This document shows positions 32,592 through 46,813 of a stretch of 64,000 nucleotides of DNA, in pieces (position 1 is the stretch's first letter; each line of letters starts with the position of its first letter). Made by a program: the position numbers and the translations under genes. The notes below the pieces were generated by a model. It saw only the letters and a program-made list of their open reading frames with translations, had not been told where the DNA came from and did no database searches. The stretch is from Methanogenium organophilum (GTDB lineage Archaea; Halobacteriota; Methanomicrobia; Methanomicrobiales; Methanomicrobiaceae), in assembly GCF_026684035.1 (NCBI RefSeq), contig NZ_CP113361.1:992001-1056000 (forward strand), written 5' to 3'.

Positions 32592-32845
32592 TATTTCAGA
32601 TAACAACGGCGATAAGGGCGCGTATCTCATCCGTTCCCCATGGAAAAATCGTTGGTGAAGCAGGGGTCTCCTTTAAATTCTGATATCACTTCATGCCTGC
32701 CACATACCGGATCGTCTGCTGACACGATCATTCCATTCTGCGATACCCATTTATATTCTTCATCCGGTACAGACGCATAGAACCGGGGGGACTCCGGTTT
32801 GCTGCACCTCAGTGGGGGCTGCAGGAATACGAGGTGAACGACACT

Positions 32846-33724
32846 ATGCAGATATTTACAGGAAGCACAGACGGCGGGGCTGGTGGGCCACTACTGAATG
32901 GAACACTGAATATCACACCTGAAGCGCTCATTTTTGCCGTTCTCGCGCTTGTTATCGGATACATAGCGGCAAAGCTCATTGTCCGCTGGGTGGAACGGAT
33001 GCTCCGGAGGCAGGGACACCTGACGGAGGTCGCCACAGGTCTTCTGGGCAGAATCATCTCGGTGCTGCTCTACATCATCGTCGTCCTGATCGCAGTCAGC
33101 TTCCTCGGGGTGGATGTGAACGGCATCGTTCTCGGTCTCTCTGCAATAATCGGCCTCGTCATCGCCTTCGGCATGAAGGATACGGTCAACAACTTCGCGG
33201 CAGGCATCTGGATTGCCTCGATGAACCTCTTCGAGAAGGGCGAAGAGGTCACCATTGGCGGACACTGGGGTATTGTGCAGACAATAGGCATCATGGCGAC
33301 GCAGCTTACTGCTGCCGGGTCGAACATCATCACCATCCCGAACGGCAATGTATGGAACGATTCCATTATCAATTATACCCGCAACCCCGAACGCCGCATC
33401 GACCAGTCGTTCGGGGTGAGCTATGAGTCTGACATGACAAAAGTCGTGCAGATCGCACTCTCCATTGCCAAAACCCACCCGAAGGTGCTGGATTCACCTG
33501 AACCAGTGGTCATCTTTGCGGAGATGGCGGACTCCTCGGTGAACTTCACCCTCCGCTGCTGGACAAAGACTCCCGACTACTACGGGGCACGGGCCGACAT
33601 CCTGCGCTCGTTGCATGCGGAGCTGACCGCAGCAGGCATTGAGATCCCATACCCGCATGTGGATGTTGCATTCAGGAATGCAAATGCCGGGGAAGAAAGC
33701 ACCACGGCAACAGGAGTGCAGTGA
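32846..33724 (+). CDS. MscS-family mechanosensitive channel
   Basis: A 292-residue small-conductance mechanosensitive channel that would release solutes under hypo-osmotic shock. Three membrane helices precede the conserved pore helix and beta domain: VDVNGIVLGLSAIIGLVIAFGMKDTVNNFAAGIWI, then the cytoplasmic vestibule (VTIGGHWGIVQTIGIMATQL, IPNGNVWNDSIINYTRNPERR). ATG 32846 has GAGGTG about 8 bases upstream. A GTG at 32834 is in frame but lies within that ribosome site. Confidence 0.92.
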   Translation: MQIFTGSTDGGAGGPLLNGTLNITPEALIFAVLALVIGYIAAKLIVRWVERMLRRQGHLTEVATGLLGRIISVLLYIIVVLIAVSFLGVDVNGIVLGLSAIIGLVIAFGMKDTVNNFAAGIWIASMNLFEKGEEVTIGGHWGIVQTIGIMATQLTAAGSNIITIPNGNVWNDSIINYTRNPERRIDQSFGVSYESDMTKVVQIALSIAKTHPKVLDSPEPVVIFAEMADSSVNFTLRCWTKTPDYYGARADILRSLHAELTAAGIEIPYPHVDVAFRNANAGEESTTATGVQ

Positions 33725-36988: not shown

Positions 36989-37327
36989 CTAACGGGACAC
37001 GAACATGCAGCCGATGCACGTAAGCCCGGCATCGGTCAGGGAGTAGATGATCCAGTTGCCCTGGGATTCCCCCACAATAAGACCCGCTTTTTTTAGCACG
37101 TTCAGGTGATAGGAGAGCTTTGAATCCGCAATGCCAATCACCTCTTTTATTACACAGACGCAGAGCGGCTGCGGGAAGAGCAGGGAGATTATCTTCAGAC
37201 GAACGGGGTCTGCACAGGCCCGGTGAACCGCACAGAGACGGACCAGCTGTTCTTCAGTGGGGAGGCGCTCCTCCATTGCCCTGACCCCGCCGCAGGCAAT
37301 GAGTGCTGCTGCCACCTCCTCAGGCAT
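36989..37327 (-). CDS. ArsR-family winged-helix repressor
   Basis: A 112-residue metal-sensing type regulator. The winged helix is visible in HRACADPVRLKIISLL, VIKEVIGIADSKLSYHLNVLKKAGLI and GNWIIYSLTD. Cys pairs occur at PLCVCVI (N-terminal side of the recognition region) and CIGC at the C-terminus, which could bind As(III), Hg(II) or another thiophilic metal. Start chosen at ATG 37327 because a TATA-like element (tttatagt, about 37403-37410 on the minus strand) sits just before the longer alternative at 37393. It lies 1.1 kb from hgcA on the opposite strand; hgcAB loci often carry an ArsR-type regulator. Confidence 0.82.
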   Translation of the reverse strand: MPEEVAAALIACGGVRAMEERLPTEEQLVRLCAVHRACADPVRLKIISLLFPQPLCVCVIKEVIGIADSKLSYHLNVLKKAGLIVGESQGNWIIYSLTDAGLTCIGCMFVSR

Positions 37328-37621
37328 TTCATGACCATCTCTTCTTTTGCCTTCTGGAAAGGGAGTATCCTGATTCTGCCGATTTTCAGGCATCTGACGT
37401 ACTATAAACGAGCACCGGCAATAAGAATTATGTCCGACAGACACCGGGATATCCGGTCTGATGAAAGGCCCGGCACTAATTAAGAGGAGATTCGGAGACG
37501 GGAAATTATCACAGATGCCCAGGATAATTGCATAATTCCGGCTGGCCTGCCTCATCCGGTCCCACCAGAGGGATGATGAAAGGAAAGCATATGTGAAAAG
37601 GTTGATGAAATAACCGCGTTT

Positions 37622-38039
37622 TCACCTGTCTTCACGGAATGGCAACCACGGCTGTCCAAGATATTTTCGTTTTATCGTCCGGGCAAAAATCCAGGGGAAG
37701 ATGATTCCTACGGCGAGGTCAAACGGCAGGAACCAGACCTGGGGATTGCTCCATACCCATGTGTCCACCATCCAAAGGAGCGGGCCAAGCCCGTACCATA
37801 TGAACGCCGTGAACCATGTCAGGAGAAAGAGGCCGGCGAGGCCGGCAGGGCCGGGCCTGAGGCTCATGAGAAGAACAGATAAGTCATACCCGAATACAAG
37901 GATGAATCCCGCCAATGCCGACAATGAGAATCAGGGTCAGCAGGAATGATTCCCCGAGAAGTGACGCATAATACCCCCCGAAGAGCAGGACGGAAAAAAG
38001 CCCGCACACAAGGGAGTTTCGTGTTATACCATAAAGCAT
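37622..38039 (-). pseudogene. Small membrane protein, probably frameshifted
   Basis: Two hydrophobic frames abut: 37884-38039 (51 codons, starting MLYGITRNSLVCGLFSVLL after a GGGGTG ribosome site) and 37622-37924 (about 81-100 codons, no ribosome site and no ATG near its beginning). Joined by a one-base shift near 37925 they would give one protein of about 135 residues with four membrane segments, ending FARTIKRKYLGQPWLPFREDR. Either a recent frameshift, a sequencing error or two overlapping small genes explains this; the first two are more likely. Family not recognised. Confidence 0.5.
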
Positions 38040-38362
38040 GCCATTCACACCCCGCCCGCAGCCGCACGGGGCGTTTTCATACCAAACCGCGTTAAACCGG
38101 GACCGCACCGGCATGTGACAGATACCGTTTCGGCAGTACCGCAGACGAAGTCTGAATACAGGGGGGAGTGGATGCATGTGGTCATATAATATTCATTTCT
38201 GAATTTCAGTCTGTTACCGGATTTATAGCTTCTGATGAGGCATGCATTCATTCAGCAGTCATTATACCCGTTACACTGATTTAGCACGATGAACGGGGAC
38301 GAAAAACACCGTCTTTCTGTATGCCGGAGCGTGCAACACCGGATACTATGTACCTGCAGTTG

Positions 38363-38380
38363 TTTCAAAATATGTTGAAA
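38363..38380. promoter_or_regulatory. Candidate ArsR-type operator upstream of hgc operon
   Basis: TTTCAA-AATATG-TTGAAA is a perfect 6-bp inverted repeat whose AT-rich spacer could itself be the TATA element of the downstream operon. Its size and composition fit ArsR/SmtB-type sites, and an ArsR-family gene lies 1 kb away. The first gene starts at 38455. Confidence 0.45.
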
Positions 38381-38454
38381 TACCAACCATTATTTGTCAG
38401 CCCCTGCCATACCTCTTCAACGAATAATGATTCATCAGGAGTGATTCCACACCT

Positions 38455-38616
38455 ATGCCGGAAAAAAATCAGAAGCCAACAAAATACGGATTTGCGGACA
38501 TACTAAAAAAGGCAATGCTGGGCTGTGCCGGCGAGTGCGGTGACGGGTGCAGCTGCTGCTCCGGTGACATCAGGGTCGAGCCGAAAAAGGATGCAGAGAA
38601 AGAAGAGAAGGACTAA
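38455..38616 (+). CDS. Small Cys-rich protein in hgcAB operon
   Basis: A 53-residue protein with a charged N-terminus (MPEKNQKPTKYGFADILKKA), a cysteine cluster GCAGECGDGCSCCSG at about 23-37, and a Lys/Glu/Asp tail. The ATG follows AGGAGTG 12 bases upstream, and hgcA starts 100 bases after the stop. The vicinal CC and spaced Cys pairs echo those in the N-terminus of HgcA and the tail of HgcB, suggesting a role in holding or delivering a soft metal. This is inference; the family is not known to me. It was found by reading the sequence, as it is short. Confidence 0.68.
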   Translation: MPEKNQKPTKYGFADILKKAMLGCAGECGDGCSCCSGDIRVEPKKDAEKEEKD

Positions 38617-38716
38617 AGAGAGAAAGCCTTCATAGCCGGTTCTGACGGTGAGCCTGCCGGAGCGGTCCCGTTCAGCCCACCCATGGGATAAACCGGAATA
38701 TTTCGGAAGGACATAC

Positions 38717-39793
38717 ATGACCAACCCACAGAATAAAGAAAAATCCTCATGCTGCTCGTGCGCAGGCGGGGGCAATGCTTCAGCTTCCTGCTGCAGTATT
38801 CCCGCAGACACAGAGACGGCAATCCCAAAAGCCACCAGTACCATCACCAGAGAAAACCGTCTCGATCACATCCGTGCACGCGTGGGCATCAACCGGATGG
38901 GGCACCGTGTCGAACCGGGACTGTACCGCCTTGGTAGACCGGATGTCGATTCTCCGGTCTTTGCATCGGCGAACTATACACTCAGTTTTGACGCACTGCG
39001 CTCTGCGCTCGCCGGTGTTGACTGCTACATCCTGGTACTGGACACCAACGGAATCAATGTCTGGTGTGCAGCCGGGAAGGGCACATTCGGAACAGATGAG
39101 CTGGTGCACCGCATTGAGTCCACCGGGCTTGCAGCGATTGTCCGGCACCGGAAAATCATCCTGCCCCAGCTGGGCGCCCCCGGCGTTTCGTGGCCGGATG
39201 TCATGCGCAGAACGCACTTTAAGGTAGTATACGGGCCGGTGCGTGCCGTTGATCTCCCCGAATTCCTCAGGACCGGTACGGCGACACCATCCATGCGAAG
39301 AGTCGAATTCCCGTTGCGGGACCGTCTCGTACTGACCCCGGTCGAGTTCGTGCATGTCGCCCTTCCGGCGCTGGCTGCGGCAGTCATCCTGTATTTTTTG
39401 GCAGGTTACGGCGCATCCCTTGCCGCAGTCGCCGCAGTTCTTGCAGGAACGGTCCTGTTCCCGGCATTGCTCCCATTCATCCCTACCCATGACTTCAGCA
39501 CAAAAGGGCTCATTCTCGGGGGAATTGTCGCCGTTCCGTTCGCGGCATCCTTTGCGACGGTTCCATTGCTTCCTTTCTGGGCGAATACAGCGGCGGCTCT
39601 CGTCGCGCTCCTCCTTATTCCGTCAGTGACCGCATATCTGGCCCTCAACTTCACCGGCTGCACCACATTTGCCTCACGCTCGGGAGTGAAAAAAGAGATA
39701 TTCCGGTATGTACCGGTGATGGCCGTCATGGCCGGGTCGGGCATCATTCTTGCCATCCTTCTCGGCATAAGCCGGCTTTTCGGGGTGATCTGA
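38717..39793 (+). CDS. hgcA: Mercury methylation corrinoid protein HgcA
   Basis: A 358-residue membrane corrinoid protein that transfers a methyl group to Hg(II), making methylmercury together with HgcB. The diagnostic cap-helix motif N-V-W-C-A-A-G-K is present at residues 114-121, with Cys117 the predicted lower ligand of the cobalt. The C-terminal half (from about 205) has about five membrane helices ending at ILLGISRLFGVI. Unusually the N-terminus carries an extra Cys-rich stretch (SCCSCAGGG...ASCC, residues 11-26). ATG 38717 is chosen for GGAAGGA 6 bases upstream. hgcB follows with no gap. Confidence 0.95.
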   Translation: MTNPQNKEKSSCCSCAGGGNASASCCSIPADTETAIPKATSTITRENRLDHIRARVGINRMGHRVEPGLYRLGRPDVDSPVFASANYTLSFDALRSALAGVDCYILVLDTNGINVWCAAGKGTFGTDELVHRIESTGLAAIVRHRKIILPQLGAPGVSWPDVMRRTHFKVVYGPVRAVDLPEFLRTGTATPSMRRVEFPLRDRLVLTPVEFVHVALPALAAAVILYFLAGYGASLAAVAAVLAGTVLFPALLPFIPTHDFSTKGLILGGIVAVPFAASFATVPLLPFWANTAAALVALLLIPSVTAYLALNFTGCTTFASRSGVKKEIFRYVPVMAVMAGSGIILAILLGISRLFGVI

Positions 39794-40189
39794 ATGTTCG
39801 ACTCATATACGGAAAACACGCTCCAGTATAATGAGGAGCGGTGCATCAACTGCGGGATGTGCAGTGCTGTCTGCCCCCACGGCGTGTTTACCCCCGGGGA
39901 TACCGCGGCCGTGCTTGCCGCCCCGTCGTCCTGCATGGAGTGCGGCGCCTGTGCCCTGAACTGCCCGGTTCAGGCCATCGGTGTGGAGAGCGGTGTCGGG
40001 TGTGCGTGGGCGATGATCTCCGCTGCACTGAGGGGAAAAGACATGGACAGCGGCACATGCGGGTGCGGCGGGGCGGCAGGTTCGTGCTGTGGTTCTGATA
40101 CAAAGGAGCCGTCCTGCTGCGATAAGAAGGAAAACGATTTCGGGAAGCAGAAGAATGATGAGGATATTCTCGTGTCTCCCCCCGTGTGA
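39794..40189 (+). CDS. hgcB: Mercury methylation ferredoxin HgcB
   Basis: A 131-residue protein with two [4Fe-4S] motifs, CINCGMCSAVCP at 17-28 and CMECGACALNCP near 47-58, a following conserved Cys (GVGCAW, near 70), and a Cys-rich tail (GTCGCGG, SCCG, SCC) which would carry mercury to HgcA. Classical HgcB is about 95 residues, so the tail here is longer by about 35 residues. It starts at an ATG directly after the hgcA stop (TGAATG). The whole pair and its active-site residues are intact, so a mercury methylator phenotype is expected. Confidence 0.95.
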   Translation: MFDSYTENTLQYNEERCINCGMCSAVCPHGVFTPGDTAAVLAAPSSCMECGACALNCPVQAIGVESGVGCAWAMISAALRGKDMDSGTCGCGGAAGSCCGSDTKEPSCCDKKENDFGKQKNDEDILVSPPV

Positions 40190-40461: not shown

Positions 40462-41605
<1,144 letters not shown>

Positions 41606-41627
41606 GATACCACAGGAAGTGAAACAA

Positions 41628-41954
41628 ATGTTGTTTGTAAGAGCGATAGTCAGACCGGAAAAGAAGGATGAAGTCCTCGAAAACCTCTCTGCCGGAGGAT
41701 TCCACGCAGCAACCGTTGTCGATGTCGTCGGCCGCGGAAAGCAGAAGGGTATCAGAATGGGAGACATCTACTACGACGAGATCCCAAAAACCCTCATTCT
41801 TGTCGGAATTGAGGATGCAGACAAGGACAAAATCGTAGATATAATCCTCAAAACAGGAAAAACCGGAGCCGACGGGAACTTTGGTGACGGGAAGATCTTC
41901 ATCAGCCCCGTCGAAGAAGTCTACACGATCTCAAAGGGAACGAAGGGCCTGTGA
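41628..41954 (+). CDS. nifI1: PII-like nitrogenase regulator NifI1
   Basis: A 108-residue PII-family protein. In methanogens NifI1 and NifI2 form a complex that shuts off nitrogenase when ammonium is present, relieved by 2-oxoglutarate. The family pattern is clear (MLFVRAIVRPEKKDEVLENLSAGG, then VVGRGKQKG, and the C-terminal GDGKIFISPVEEVYTI). ATG 41628 is preferred, after AGGAAGTG; a GTG at 41619 is possible. It lies 22 bases after nifH. Confidence 0.93.
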   Translation: MLFVRAIVRPEKKDEVLENLSAGGFHAATVVDVVGRGKQKGIRMGDIYYDEIPKTLILVGIEDADKDKIVDIILKTGKTGADGNFGDGKIFISPVEEVYTISKGTKGL

Positions 41955-41969
41955 GCAGGAGATGCTGAG

Positions 41970-42389
41970 ATGAAAGAAATTTTGGCAATCGTGCGGATGA
42001 AGAAGACCGGCGCAACCAAAAAGGCGCTCATTGAAGCCGGAGTTGCGGGATTCACCGCAATGAAGGCGACCGGCAGGGGAAACCTGGTGGACGACGATGA
42101 CATCATCGTCCCCTGCAGGGAGAAGCTCGAGAAGATGGCACCCAATGATGTCATCGACGAGGAGGAAGTGGAAGAGCAGATTGTCACATTCCTCGATGAC
42201 ACACGGATGTTTCCCCGCAGGCTCTTCACCATCCTTGCCCATGATGAGGATGTCCCCAGAATCGTTGAGGCGATAATGGCGGCAAATCGCACCGAACGCG
42301 GTGCAGGCGACGGAAAGATATTCGTAACCCCAGTAGCAGATGCCATTCGTGTCCGCACGGGTGAATCAGGCGACGCTGCAATCTGGTAG
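41970..42389 (+). CDS. nifI2: PII-like nitrogenase regulator NifI2
   Basis: A 139-residue second PII-like subunit. The N-terminus (KEILAIVRMKKTGATKKALIEAGVAGFTAMKATGRG) and C-terminus (GAGDGKIFVTPVADAIRVRTGE) are typical. It is longer than NifI1, with an extended middle (REKLEKMAPNDVIDEEEVEEQIV) characteristic of NifI2. It begins 15 bases after nifI1 and ends 21 bases before nifD. Post-translational switch-off of nitrogenase is therefore expected in this organism. Confidence 0.92.
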   Translation: MKEILAIVRMKKTGATKKALIEAGVAGFTAMKATGRGNLVDDDDIIVPCREKLEKMAPNDVIDEEEVEEQIVTFLDDTRMFPRRLFTILAHDEDVPRIVEAIMAANRTERGAGDGKIFVTPVADAIRVRTGESGDAAIW

Positions 42390-42410
42390 GTATTACGGAG
42401 GACACAGAAT

Positions 42411-44027
42411 ATGACAGTAACAGATCTGAACGTCGACGATATGATGACACCATACCCGAACAAGGTATTAAAGAACCGGAAAAAGCATATCGTCGCAAAG
42501 ACTGACGGAGCCGCTTCCTGCCCGCAGATCGAGGCAAATACCCGAACCGTCCCCGGTATTATCTCACAGCGGGGATGCTGCTATGCAGGGTGCAAGGGTG
42601 TCGTGGTCGGCCCGATCAAGGACATGATCACGATAACGCACGGTCCCATCGGGTGTGGCTATTACAGCTGGGGAACCAGGCGAAACAAAGCACGTGCCGA
42701 TGACAGGACACCGCCGGAACACATCTTCTCGGCGATGTGCTTCTCGACTGACATGCAGGAGAGCGATATCGTATTCGGCGGCGAGAAGAAGCTCGCGAAG
42801 ATGATCGACGAGGTTGTTGAGATATTCCACCCGAGAGCCATAAACATCTGCTCCACATGCCCGATAGGACTTATCGGTGACGACCTCGGTGCCGTCTCAA
42901 AGGCGGCAGAAGAGAAGCACGGCATCCCGATCATCCATTACAACTGTGAAGGGTACAAGGGGGTCAGCCAGTCGGCAGGCCACCATATCGCAAACAACCA
43001 GATCATGGAGAAGATGGTCGGCACTGGCACAGACGGACCGGCAGGGGACCGCGTCATCAACATCCTCGGCGAGTACAACATCGGCGGAGACGGATGGGAG
43101 ATTGAACGCATCCTCGAGGATATCGGATACACCGTAAACTCGATACTGACCGGCGATTCCGCCTATGCAAATATCAAAAACCTGCATTCGGCCAATCTGA
43201 ACCTGGTCCAGTGCCACCGCTCTATCAACTACATCGCGGAGATGATGGAGACAAAATACGGCATCCCCTGGCTCAAGGTGAACTTCATCGGTGTCGAGGC
43301 GACGATAGCGACCCTCAGGGACGTCGCCCAGTGCTTTGGCGACGAGGATCTGATTGCACAGACAGAGGTCGTCATTGAACGCGAACTGGCCGCAATCACT
43401 CCGGAACTGGAGCGTTACCGCAGTATCTGCAAAGGAAAGACCGCATTCACCTTTGTAGGCGGGTCCCGCAGCCACCATTACCAGTACCTGCTGAAGGACC
43501 TGGGCATGGAGGTCGTTGTTGCAGGGTATGAATTTGCCCACCGTGACGACTACGAAGGACGCGATGTGATTCCTACCATTAAGAGCGATGCGGATTCAAA
43601 GAACATCCCCGAACTTCACCTGGAAGCGGACCCCGACATGTATGAAGAACCAAATCTTCACCTGAACATGTCGAAGGAGAAGTATGACGAACTGGTCGAA
43701 GCCGGCCATTTCGCCACCTATGACGGGATGTACCCGGACATGGTAGATGGCGGTGTGATGATCGACGACCCCAACCATTACGAGACCGAGGAGCTCATCG
43801 AGATCTTCCACCCCGACCTGATATTCTCAGGAATTCGGGACAAGTACATCTCACACAAGATGGGCGTCCCCTCAAAGCAGCTGCACTCATACGACTACAG
43901 CGGCCCATATGCAGGATTCAGGGGTTCAATCATCTTTGCAAAGGATGTGGCGAACGCACTCTCCACCCCTGCATGGCAGATGATCACCCCACCATGGGAT
44001 AAGACAGAAACCGAAGGAGGCGACTGA
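42411..44027 (+). CDS. nifD: Nitrogenase MoFe-protein alpha chain NifD
   Basis: A 538-residue protein. P-cluster Cys ligands are visible in CCYAGCKGV and GPIGCGYYSW and in the later CSTCPIGLIGDD. FeMo-cofactor ligands appear as Cys in LVQCHRSINYI and His in QLHSYDYSGPYAGF. The substrate-site stretch GVSQSAGHHIAN corresponds to the Gln191/His195/His196 region. The position that is His451 in Azotobacter is Ala here (PYAGF). An insertion near 400-450 (DPDMYEEPNLHLNMSKEKY...) is typical of clostridial and methanogen-type alpha chains. nifK begins two bases after the stop. Confidence 0.96.
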   Translation: MTVTDLNVDDMMTPYPNKVLKNRKKHIVAKTDGAASCPQIEANTRTVPGIISQRGCCYAGCKGVVVGPIKDMITITHGPIGCGYYSWGTRRNKARADDRTPPEHIFSAMCFSTDMQESDIVFGGEKKLAKMIDEVVEIFHPRAINICSTCPIGLIGDDLGAVSKAAEEKHGIPIIHYNCEGYKGVSQSAGHHIANNQIMEKMVGTGTDGPAGDRVINILGEYNIGGDGWEIERILEDIGYTVNSILTGDSAYANIKNLHSANLNLVQCHRSINYIAEMMETKYGIPWLKVNFIGVEATIATLRDVAQCFGDEDLIAQTEVVIERELAAITPELERYRSICKGKTAFTFVGGSRSHHYQYLLKDLGMEVVVAGYEFAHRDDYEGRDVIPTIKSDADSKNIPELHLEADPDMYEEPNLHLNMSKEKYDELVEAGHFATYDGMYPDMVDGGVMIDDPNHYETEELIEIFHPDLIFSGIRDKYISHKMGVPSKQLHSYDYSGPYAGFRGSIIFAKDVANALSTPAWQMITPPWDKTETEGGD

Positions 44028-44029
44028 AA

Positions 44030-45400
44030 ATGCTGGACTGCACACCAAAAGGCCCTGTCGATACACACAAGACAGGCACCATCAACCCGATCAAGACATG
44101 CCAGCCCCTGGGAGCGATGTATGCTGCCCTCGGCATTCACGGATGTCTGCCGCACAGTCACGGATCTCAGGGATGCTGCGCATATCACCGGATGGCGTTG
44201 ACCCGCCACTTCCGTGACCCGGCAATGGCATCCTCAAGCTCCTTTACGGAAGGAGCGTCCGTATTCGGCGGTGCGGGCAACCTCAAGACATCCATTAAAA
44301 ATGTCTTTGCAATCTACAACCCGGACATCATTGCCGTGCATACCACCTGCCTCAGCGAGACAATCGGAGACGACCTGCCGACGATCATCAAGCAGTCGGA
44401 GATCCCCGAGGGGAAGTATGTCATTCACGCCAACACCCCAAGTTACCACGGATCGCACATCACCGGGTTTTCGAATATGTGCAAGGGAATCGTATCCTAC
44501 CTGGCAGAATCCGACGGGAACCCCAAAAAAGAACAGCTCAACATATTCCCCGGGTTCGTCAACCCGGGCGACATGAGAGAGGTACAGCGGATTGTAACCG
44601 AGATGGGAATTCCCTCAATCATGTATCCGGACACAACAGACGTGATGGACTCACCACTGCTCAAGACGTACGAGATGTACCCCAGTGGCGGCGCGAAGAT
44701 TGAGGATATCAGAGATTCGGGCAACTCGAAGCTGACGCTTGCGCTTGGAGCATGGTCATCGGCAGAAGCTGCAGCAATCCTCCAGGATAAGTGCGGCGTG
44801 CCCGGTGTACCTCTCAAACTCCCGATAGGTGTCAAGGCGACCGATGCCCTGATTATGGCAGTGAAGGACGGATTCGGTGTAGATGTCCCGGCATCTCTCG
44901 AGATTGAGAGAGGACAGGTCATCGACACCATGATTGACACCCACTTCCACTACCAGGGAAAGACCGTGGCAGTATTCGGGGATCCGGATCTTGTGATTGC
45001 ACTGACCGAGTTCCTCATCACCCTGGGAATGATCCCGAAATACGTGATCACCGGAACAAATGGGAAAAATTTCGAGAAGATCATCAACGAGATGCTTGAA
45101 GAAGCAGGCATCGAAGGATCAAAAGTCAAAGCGGAAGGAGATCTCTTCGACCTCCATGAATGGATCAAAGAAGAGTCTGTCGACCTGCTGATGGGCAACT
45201 CACACGGCAAGTACATTGCACGGGCTGAAGACATCCCGCTCGTCCGGGTTGGATTCCCAATCTCGGACAGGGCGGTTCATCCCCTCATGCCTGTCACCGG
45301 ATACCGGGGATGCCTGCGCCTGATTGAGATGATCAGCAATACCCTGCTTGACCGCCGTGACCGCGACGCCGCTGACGAGGACTACGAACTCGTACTGTAA
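44030..45400 (+). CDS. nifK: Nitrogenase MoFe-protein beta chain NifK
   Basis: A 456-residue partner of NifD. The P-cluster ligands occur in IKTCQPLGAMYAALGIHGC and SHGSQGCCAYHRMAL, and the stretch DPAMASSSSFTEGASVFGGAGNL is diagnostic of NifK. It is shorter at the N-terminus than proteobacterial NifK (about 520), as is normal for this branch. Translation begins 2 bases after nifD, so stoichiometric synthesis is favoured. Confidence 0.96.
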   Translation: MLDCTPKGPVDTHKTGTINPIKTCQPLGAMYAALGIHGCLPHSHGSQGCCAYHRMALTRHFRDPAMASSSSFTEGASVFGGAGNLKTSIKNVFAIYNPDIIAVHTTCLSETIGDDLPTIIKQSEIPEGKYVIHANTPSYHGSHITGFSNMCKGIVSYLAESDGNPKKEQLNIFPGFVNPGDMREVQRIVTEMGIPSIMYPDTTDVMDSPLLKTYEMYPSGGAKIEDIRDSGNSKLTLALGAWSSAEAAAILQDKCGVPGVPLKLPIGVKATDALIMAVKDGFGVDVPASLEIERGQVIDTMIDTHFHYQGKTVAVFGDPDLVIALTEFLITLGMIPKYVITGTNGKNFEKIINEMLEEAGIEGSKVKAEGDLFDLHEWIKEESVDLLMGNSHGKYIARAEDIPLVRVGFPISDRAVHPLMPVTGYRGCLRLIEMISNTLLDRRDRDAADEDYELVL

Positions 45401-45424
45401 CGGAACAGAAACGGAGGAGAAACA

Positions 45425-46813
45425 ATGGAAAACACATGTTCACAGACCCCGGAACAAGATGCCCTTATCACAGAGCGACAGCATTCAATCGTCACCACCG
45501 GCAACACCAAAACCAGTATCAACTGCACGGACGACAGCCTCGCAGGTTCCGTTAGCCAGCGGGCATGTGTTTTCTGCGGAGCACGAGTGGTCTTAAATCC
45601 GGTCACCGATGCCGTTCACCTGGTGCACGGGCCGATTGGATGCGCCGCGTATACCTATGATATACGCGGCAGCCTTTCGAGTGGTTCGGAGATGTACCGG
45701 AGAAGCTTCTCCACTGATATGAAGGAAAAAGACGTCATCTTCGGCGGAGAGAAGAAACTCGCTGCATGTCTTGCGGAGCTGGCTGAAAAGCACCATCCGC
45801 CAGCGATATTCGTCTACTCCACCTGTGTCTCGGGAATGATCGGAGACGACATCGTCGCCGTCTGCAAAGAGGCTTCCCTCACATACGACATCGATGTCAT
45901 CCCGGTCGAGTCCAGCGGATTTATCTCCGGCAACAAGATCGTGGGATACCGGGCCGCAGGAGAGGCACTCCTGCGCCTCATCACCCCAAAAGAAGGAGAG
46001 GTCATCGAAAAGACCCGGAAGCTCAACTTCCTCGGCGAGTACAATCTCGGCGGAGAGAAGTGGGTCGTCGAACGCTACCTGCGTGAGATAGGAATCGAAA
46101 TCAATGTCGCCTTTACCGGAGACTCGACCGTTAAAGCCCTGAAAAAGGCTCCCGGTTCCTGTCTTAATATTGTCCAGTGCACCGGTTCGATGCACTGGGT
46201 GGCAAACCAGATGTACGAAGCGTTCGGGATCCCCTACCTCGATGTCAACTTCTTTGGTGCGGAAAACACCGCAGAGAGCCTGCGAAAGATTGCAGCGTTC
46301 TATGACGACCCTGAGATCTCCGCCAGAACCGAAGCTCTCATCGAACGGGAGATGCAGGCGGTCAAAGACGTGAACGAGAAATACAGAAAGAGTCTGGAAG
46401 GCAAGCGTGCCGCGATATATGTCGGAGGCGCCTTCAAGGCATTTGCGATTATCCGCCAGTTAACGGAACTGGGCATGGAAATCGTCCTGACCGGCACCCA
46501 GACGGGCAAGAAGACCGAGTATGAACGGATGGGCAGTCTGCTCAATGAGGGAACAGTTATCATCGACGATGCAAACCCCGCTGAGATCGAGAAGTTCCTC
46601 ATCGAAAAGAAAGTCGATGTCATGGCCGGAGGGGTGAAAGAACGATTTCTGGCATACAAGCTGGGAGTCGGGTTCATCGACCACAACCATGACCGAAAAG
46701 ACGGCCTGATAGGCTTTGAAGGAGCCATTAGGTTCACAAAGGAAGTGTATGCGACTACATGCTCGCCGGTATGGAAGTACGTGAGACATGAATACGGAGA
46801 GACAGACCAATGA
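45425..46813 (+). CDS. nifE: Nitrogenase cofactor scaffold NifE
   Basis: A 462-residue NifD-like protein that with NifN forms the scaffold on which NifB-cofactor is matured to FeMo-co. NifE-type Cys regions are present (RACVFCGARVVLNPV, GPIGCAAYTYDIRG, STCVSGMIGDD), and the cofactor-region Cys lies in NIVQCTGSMHWVANQM. The start lies 24 bases after nifK. Its end overlaps the start of nifN (ATGA, 46810-46813). Confidence 0.94.
   Translation: MENTCSQTPEQDALITERQHSIVTTGNTKTSINCTDDSLAGSVSQRACVFCGARVVLNPVTDAVHLVHGPIGCAAYTYDIRGSLSSGSEMYRRSFSTDMKEKDVIFGGEKKLAACLAELAEKHHPPAIFVYSTCVSGMIGDDIVAVCKEASLTYDIDVIPVESSGFISGNKIVGYRAAGEALLRLITPKEGEVIEKTRKLNFLGEYNLGGEKWVVERYLREIGIEINVAFTGDSTVKALKKAPGSCLNIVQCTGSMHWVANQMYEAFGIPYLDVNFFGAENTAESLRKIAAFYDDPEISARTEALIEREMQAVKDVNEKYRKSLEGKRAAIYVGGAFKAFAIIRQLTELGMEIVLTGTQTGKKTEYERMGSLLNEGTVIIDDANPAEIEKFLIEKKVDVMAGGVKERFLAYKLGVGFIDHNHDRKDGLIGFEGAIRFTKEVYATTCSPVWKYVRHEYGETDQ

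Follow-up and report, generated by a model that had tools for sequence, protein, structure and literature searches.

Results

The hgcAB locus and its leading gene

The window, a 64,000-nucleotide stretch of the Methanogenium organophilum genome, contains the adjacent genes hgcA and hgcB on the plus strand. hgcA (38717..39793) encodes a 358-residue protein, the corrinoid protein of mercury methylation, which exceeds the NF040863 cut-off of 275 bits with 446 bits, has a cysteine-rich N-terminus and carries an intact NVWCAAGK cap motif, of the form N(V/I)WCA(A/S)GK, at residues 114-121 (nt 39056-39079). hgcB (39794..40189) encodes a 2[4Fe-4S] ferredoxin of 131 residues with 111.6 bits against NF040864 (cut-off 99); both of its CxxCxxCxxxCP motifs are intact, and two CC pairs can be read in its tail. 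With both cut-offs passed and the motifs present, the intact pair that an earlier, sequence-only reading of this DNA had proposed is confirmed. For hgcA we use the ATG at 38717, which is backed by the hgcA start in Methanogenium marinum DSM 15558 (G105); a GTG at 38648 was rejected because the frame in that genome is closed ahead of it. The locus has the look of a functional hgcAB operon, and its genes predict methylation of Hg(II). Directly 3' of hgcB, translations alone point to a nitrogenase-type cluster (40781-46813) with nifH-like, two PII-like and nifD/K/E-like genes.

The operon starts with a gene for a 53-residue, cysteine-rich protein (GCAGECGDGCSCCSG; 38455..38616, plus strand). In two further members of the genus, one of them M. 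marinum DSM 15558, hgcA is preceded by copies with 91% and 62% identity, and three pairwise comparisons gave dN/dS values of about 0.26, 0.27 and 0.52, so that synonymous change is favoured. Because of this conservation and of dN/dS ratios below 1, the frame is very probably coding. It is short and has no match to any Pfam or NCBIfam family, as a spurious open reading frame might, but it belongs to a conserved family, follows a Shine-Dalgarno-like GGAGTGA and keeps a fixed place past an operator, all of which makes a chance frame very hard to credit. The sequence-only reading had placed a small cysteine protein at the start of the operon, and this proves to be a genuine conserved gene, standing in front of hgcA in three Methanogenium genomes. 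A single weak match to a pestivirus capsid was put down to chance. Profiles of the metallochaperone ArsD (PF06953/NF033727) matched neither this protein nor the other members of the family alignment (A1).

A probable ArsR-type operator around the predicted promoter

Upstream of the small gene lies a perfect palindrome of the form TTTCAA-N6-TTGAAA (TTTCAAAATATGTTGAAA; operator 1, 38363..38380). The 2.65-Mb genome contains one other perfect match to this pattern, which is located within an unrelated open reading frame and was set aside. A TATA-like ATTATTT (38389..38395, plus strand), the inferred promoter, follows between the two operator positions. Operator 1 and the ATTATTT are conserved in M. 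marinum and in a further relative (G108). Operator 2 (38415..38432), 52 bp from operator 1, is degenerate in the window, with 4 mismatches, and matches the half-site pattern in both relatives.

On the minus strand, a gene at 36989..37327 encodes a regulator with a 112-residue core (MPEEV...) that scores 74.8 bits against NF033788 (cut-off 55), which places it in the ArsR/SmtB family; its nearest solved structures are NmtR, SmtB and CadC. At sequence level it possesses a metal site in the form of a Cys-x-Cys in helix alpha3 (PLCVCVIK), which is kept in 63 of 71 operator-adjacent ArsR homologues. Homologues of the regulator are found in 176 of the 232 genomes of the order Methanomicrobiales. An insertion of about 900 bp (37457..38361), missing from M. 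marinum and G108 in the alignment, lies between the ArsR gene and the operator. As operator 2 is degenerate and these 900 bp separate the regulator from its operator, control in this species could be weakened. The insertion includes a frame for a hydrophobic protein of 100 residues (37622..37924, minus strand), for which a family search returned no match. A mobile element was considered and dropped: the insertion is single-copy in the genome, and flanking or terminal repeats were not found.

Across the order, the palindrome is usually doubled, with 52 bp between the copies and one on either side of a TATA box. The consensus of 93 such pairs reads ATTTCAAA-TAAT-TGAAAT...TATATA...TATTTCAAnAAAATTTGAAAT, and its TATATA corresponds in position to the ATTATTT of the window. 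Operator pairs are present in 91 of the 232 genomes, where a reversed-pattern control gave no matches; in a sample of the phylum outside the order, the pair was found in 1 of about 310 genomes and the reversed control likewise matched once. For 96 pairs, the flanking DNA was long enough to judge the context; an ArsR of the window type lies within 600 bp of 73 of them, divergent in 72 cases. The pairs precede permease, thioredoxin or DGC genes in 78 of 96 cases and hgcA in 9. Several genomes with an operator-fronted hgcA carry an additional pair, located at a permease locus; in the hgcA-bearing Methanogenium genomes, a genome-wide pattern search found no other pair. Regulator and operator are thus co-located; ArsR probably binds these sites and would be released by metal. 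The ArsP_1 permease encoded in the genome of the window (L105) was left out of the regulon, as it is accompanied by a separate ArsR paralogue and by two DGC proteins, and the pattern search detected no operator pair in this genome.

A small cysteine-rich family of ars-type operons

With a profile built from the relatives of the 53-residue protein (A1), we scanned the 232 Methanomicrobiales genomes and found the family in 64 of them. Its members, a previously undescribed family, have about 45-55 residues, with a C-rich core followed by (V/I)(K/R)(I/V)xPK and an acidic/basic tail, and are encoded just after the operator, the ATG usually lying 10-26 nt past operator 2. The protein of the window has these traits and matches the profile with an E-value of 2e-16, being itself part of the alignment.

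hgcA is present in 85 of the 232 genomes, yet it coincides with the small gene in only 13, against about 23 expected (odds ratio 0.34, uncorrected p = 0.0014), which is a depletion. The two genes are immediate neighbours in only three genomes, all Methanogenium. Elsewhere, the small gene usually comes first in operons that encode ArsP_1-type permeases (PF03773) along with ArsE-like thioredoxins, adjoined by a divergent ArsR. In two genomes (G030 and G040) it stands beside ArsR, an ArsP_1 permease, ArsC and Acr3, and in G040 an ArsD is found there too. The ars operons of these two genomes (L068:7119-9964 in G030, L069:6496-9659 in G040) follow hgcAB at a distance of about 1-2 kb. An orphan gene of the hgc-linked subtype adjoins a gene for an MscS-type channel in a further genome (G107, locus L036), where neither hgcA nor a recognisable operator was found; an MscS-type gene is present in the window too, at 32834-33724.

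The sequence-only reading had combined the cysteine clusters of all three proteins into a thiol relay specific to hgcAB, in which the small protein, having evolved for this purpose, the N-terminus of HgcA and the tail of HgcB pass Hg(II) to the corrinoid site. CC-rich stretches do occur in all three proteins, and the adjacency of the small gene to hgcA is kept in three Methanogenium genomes. However, the co-occurrence with hgcA that had been proposed as a check came out in the opposite direction: the family is mostly found in genomes and places that do not contain hgcA, which that reading had itself named as a refutation, and most hgcA loci do not have the small gene. Nor are the other two parts peculiar to this locus. 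A cysteine-rich N-terminus, described before as unusual, is typical of nearly all Methanomicrobiales HgcA proteins that we examined, generally with 3-6 cysteines, and occurs in some Methanosarcinales and Firmicutes as well, while it is missing mainly in Deltaproteobacteria. The HgcB tail had been singled out as long; in most of the Methanomicrobiales compared it has one or two CC pairs, and only about 18 additional, cysteine-free residues set the present one apart. We therefore abandoned the idea that all three cysteine-rich parts are locus-specific. As the family is mostly unlinked to hgcA and sits in ArsR, permease and ars operons, an hgcAB-specific relay is not supported and seems improbable to us. 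The small protein is possibly a general thiol binder of soft metals and metalloids that was borrowed by hgcAB.

Two regulatory styles at hgcA loci

Upstream of hgcA, the order offers two main solutions. We compared 70 hgcA loci, counting single palindromes along with pairs. An AbrB-like HgcC (NF040962) lies directly upstream of hgcA in 47 loci, none of which has the operator; the operator fronts hgcA in 13 of the 70 loci, all among the 23 that have no HgcC. For this mutual exclusion, Fisher's test on a near-identical table gave p ~1e-8, a value to be read with the caveat that the loci are not independent events and that the HgcA tree addresses their kinship only in part. HgcC (NF040962, cut-off 70 bits) has no match anywhere in the genome of the window.

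The operator-fronted loci differ in what follows. In Methanogenium, the order is operator, small cysteine gene and hgcA; six Methanoregula-type genomes have the operator, a cupin-domain gene (PF07883) and hgcA; in three more (G157, G134 and G173), hgcA begins directly past the operator. The cupin-domain protein, of 115-135 residues where it lies between an ArsR-type operator and hgcA (L098, L295, L097, L266 and L169), is possibly a second hgcAB-associated protein. A third arrangement within the order occurs in G196 (L100), where a same-strand gene for an ArsR homologue immediately precedes hgcA. A tree of 86 HgcA sequences requires seven changes in the operator state, and well-supported branches force at least four of them; operator-fronted hgcA appears to have arisen several times.

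The two styles are not fully separate, since HgcC genes also adjoin some ArsR-permease loci: HgcC-type AbrB proteins are encoded near such loci in the absence of hgcA in G133, G184 and G190 (L258, L283 and L289), and near a second operator pair in G134 and G195. HgcC may thus not be exclusive to hgcAB, and it may be part of the same metal response and not a wholly distinct system.

Discussion

How did a mercury-methylation operon come to stand behind an ArsR-type operator? Our analysis makes it fairly likely that hgcAB was recruited into a metal(loid) regulon of the ArsR family, with the small protein as a thiol metal-binding partner. This reading is based on gene content, conservation, the shared operator, the mutual exclusion with HgcC and the repeated origin on the tree. 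The usual members of the regulon would be ArsP-type permeases, ArsE-like thioredoxins and DGC proteins, the small cysteine gene being the standard first gene in many genomes. In the proposed mechanism, the ArsR-type repressor (36989-37327) would bind the TTTCAA-N6-TTGAAA palindromes around the TATA box and the transcription start and thereby shut the promoter. A thiophilic ion, for example As(III), Hg(II) or a comparable one, would release the repressor on binding to its Cys-x-Cys site, upon which the 53-residue protein, HgcA and HgcB would be produced together. Small and soluble, the first of these would most likely carry or buffer soft metal(loid)s through its thiols. We infer the identity of the operator-binding protein, the inducing ion and the carrier role of the small protein.

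A simpler history is that hgcAB landed as a passenger behind an existing ArsR/small-gene promoter, the small protein keeping its old metalloid role and contributing nothing to mercury methylation. A member of the same genus that does not possess hgcA (G109) indeed carries the small gene with a permease and a thioredoxin, the Methanogenium HgcA proteins do not group with those of their family-mates G101 and G102 on the HgcA tree, and in the window the inserted DNA and the decayed operator agree with such a history. However, the small gene and its place are kept in all three hgcA-bearing Methanogenium genomes, even though the pattern search detected no other pair in them. Moreover, hgcAB was captured independently elsewhere on the tree, which suggests selection on its regulation. 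On balance, we regard the passenger history as unlikely, though less so than the relay. The small protein could also be an ArsD-like or anti-repressor partner of ArsR in regulation and not a metal carrier, a role with which its tight linkage to ArsR and operator and its clustered cysteines would be compatible. We consider this a poor prospect, on a par with the relay, as the protein matches neither ArsD nor any other profile and its family stands beside ars genes in two genomes, one of which has a separate ArsD.

Taking the recruitment of hgcAB into the regulon further, we tentatively propose, at somewhat less than even confidence, that in Methanomicrobiales mercury methylation was repeatedly made an output of one ArsR-controlled soft-metal/arsenic regulon with its tandem operator around the promoter, and that in Methanogenium the small cysteine protein would supply or buffer metal for HgcAB. 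The question of why microbes keep hgcAB and what turns it on bears directly on methylmercury in food webs. The operator common to hgcAB and metal(loid) permease operons makes it directly testable whether archaea methylate mercury as part of a response to metal(loid) stress, and it predicts which species ought to respond to arsenic. The small cysteine proteins further provide a family for annotation.

Comparison with known systems

The locus resembles the known hgcAB pair (NF040863/NF040864) in both scores, the cap motif, the two 4Fe-4S motifs and the adjacency of the genes, but here a small cysteine protein and an ArsR-type operator lead in place of HgcC. HgcC, the AbrB-like "HgcAB-associated protein", grouped here with the TA/prlF-type archaeal regulator of Zhang et al. 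(2023; PMC10349881), is normally encoded immediately ahead of hgcA in this order and is also small with a cysteine-rich N-terminus; in the genome of the window it is replaced by ArsR, operator and small gene. With ars operons (ArsP_1 permeases, ArsD, ArsC and Acr3), the locus has the small protein and ArsR-type regulators in common, whereas hgcAB stands where the efflux genes would be. The small protein shares with ArsD its small size, its clustered vicinal cysteines and its membership in ars operons, but it is half the size of ArsD and has no sequence match to it.

ArsR-like control of hgcAB and a response to arsenic have been described for Pseudodesulfovibrio mercurii ND132 (Gionfriddo et al., 2023, as cited in PMC10349881). 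That system likewise links an ArsR-family regulator to hgcAB and has an arsenic connection; its arsR is co-transcribed upstream of hgcAB, whereas the present one is archaeal and divergent, with a tandem operator in common with a permease regulon. In the survey of Zhang et al. (2023; PMC10349881), ArsR control of hgcAB is mostly bacterial, and archaea are assigned an antitoxin/AbrB-type (TA/prlF-type) regulator, with one archaeal ArsR exception. Our results revise this split by adding, for archaea, a defined and repeatedly acquired ArsR-type architecture.
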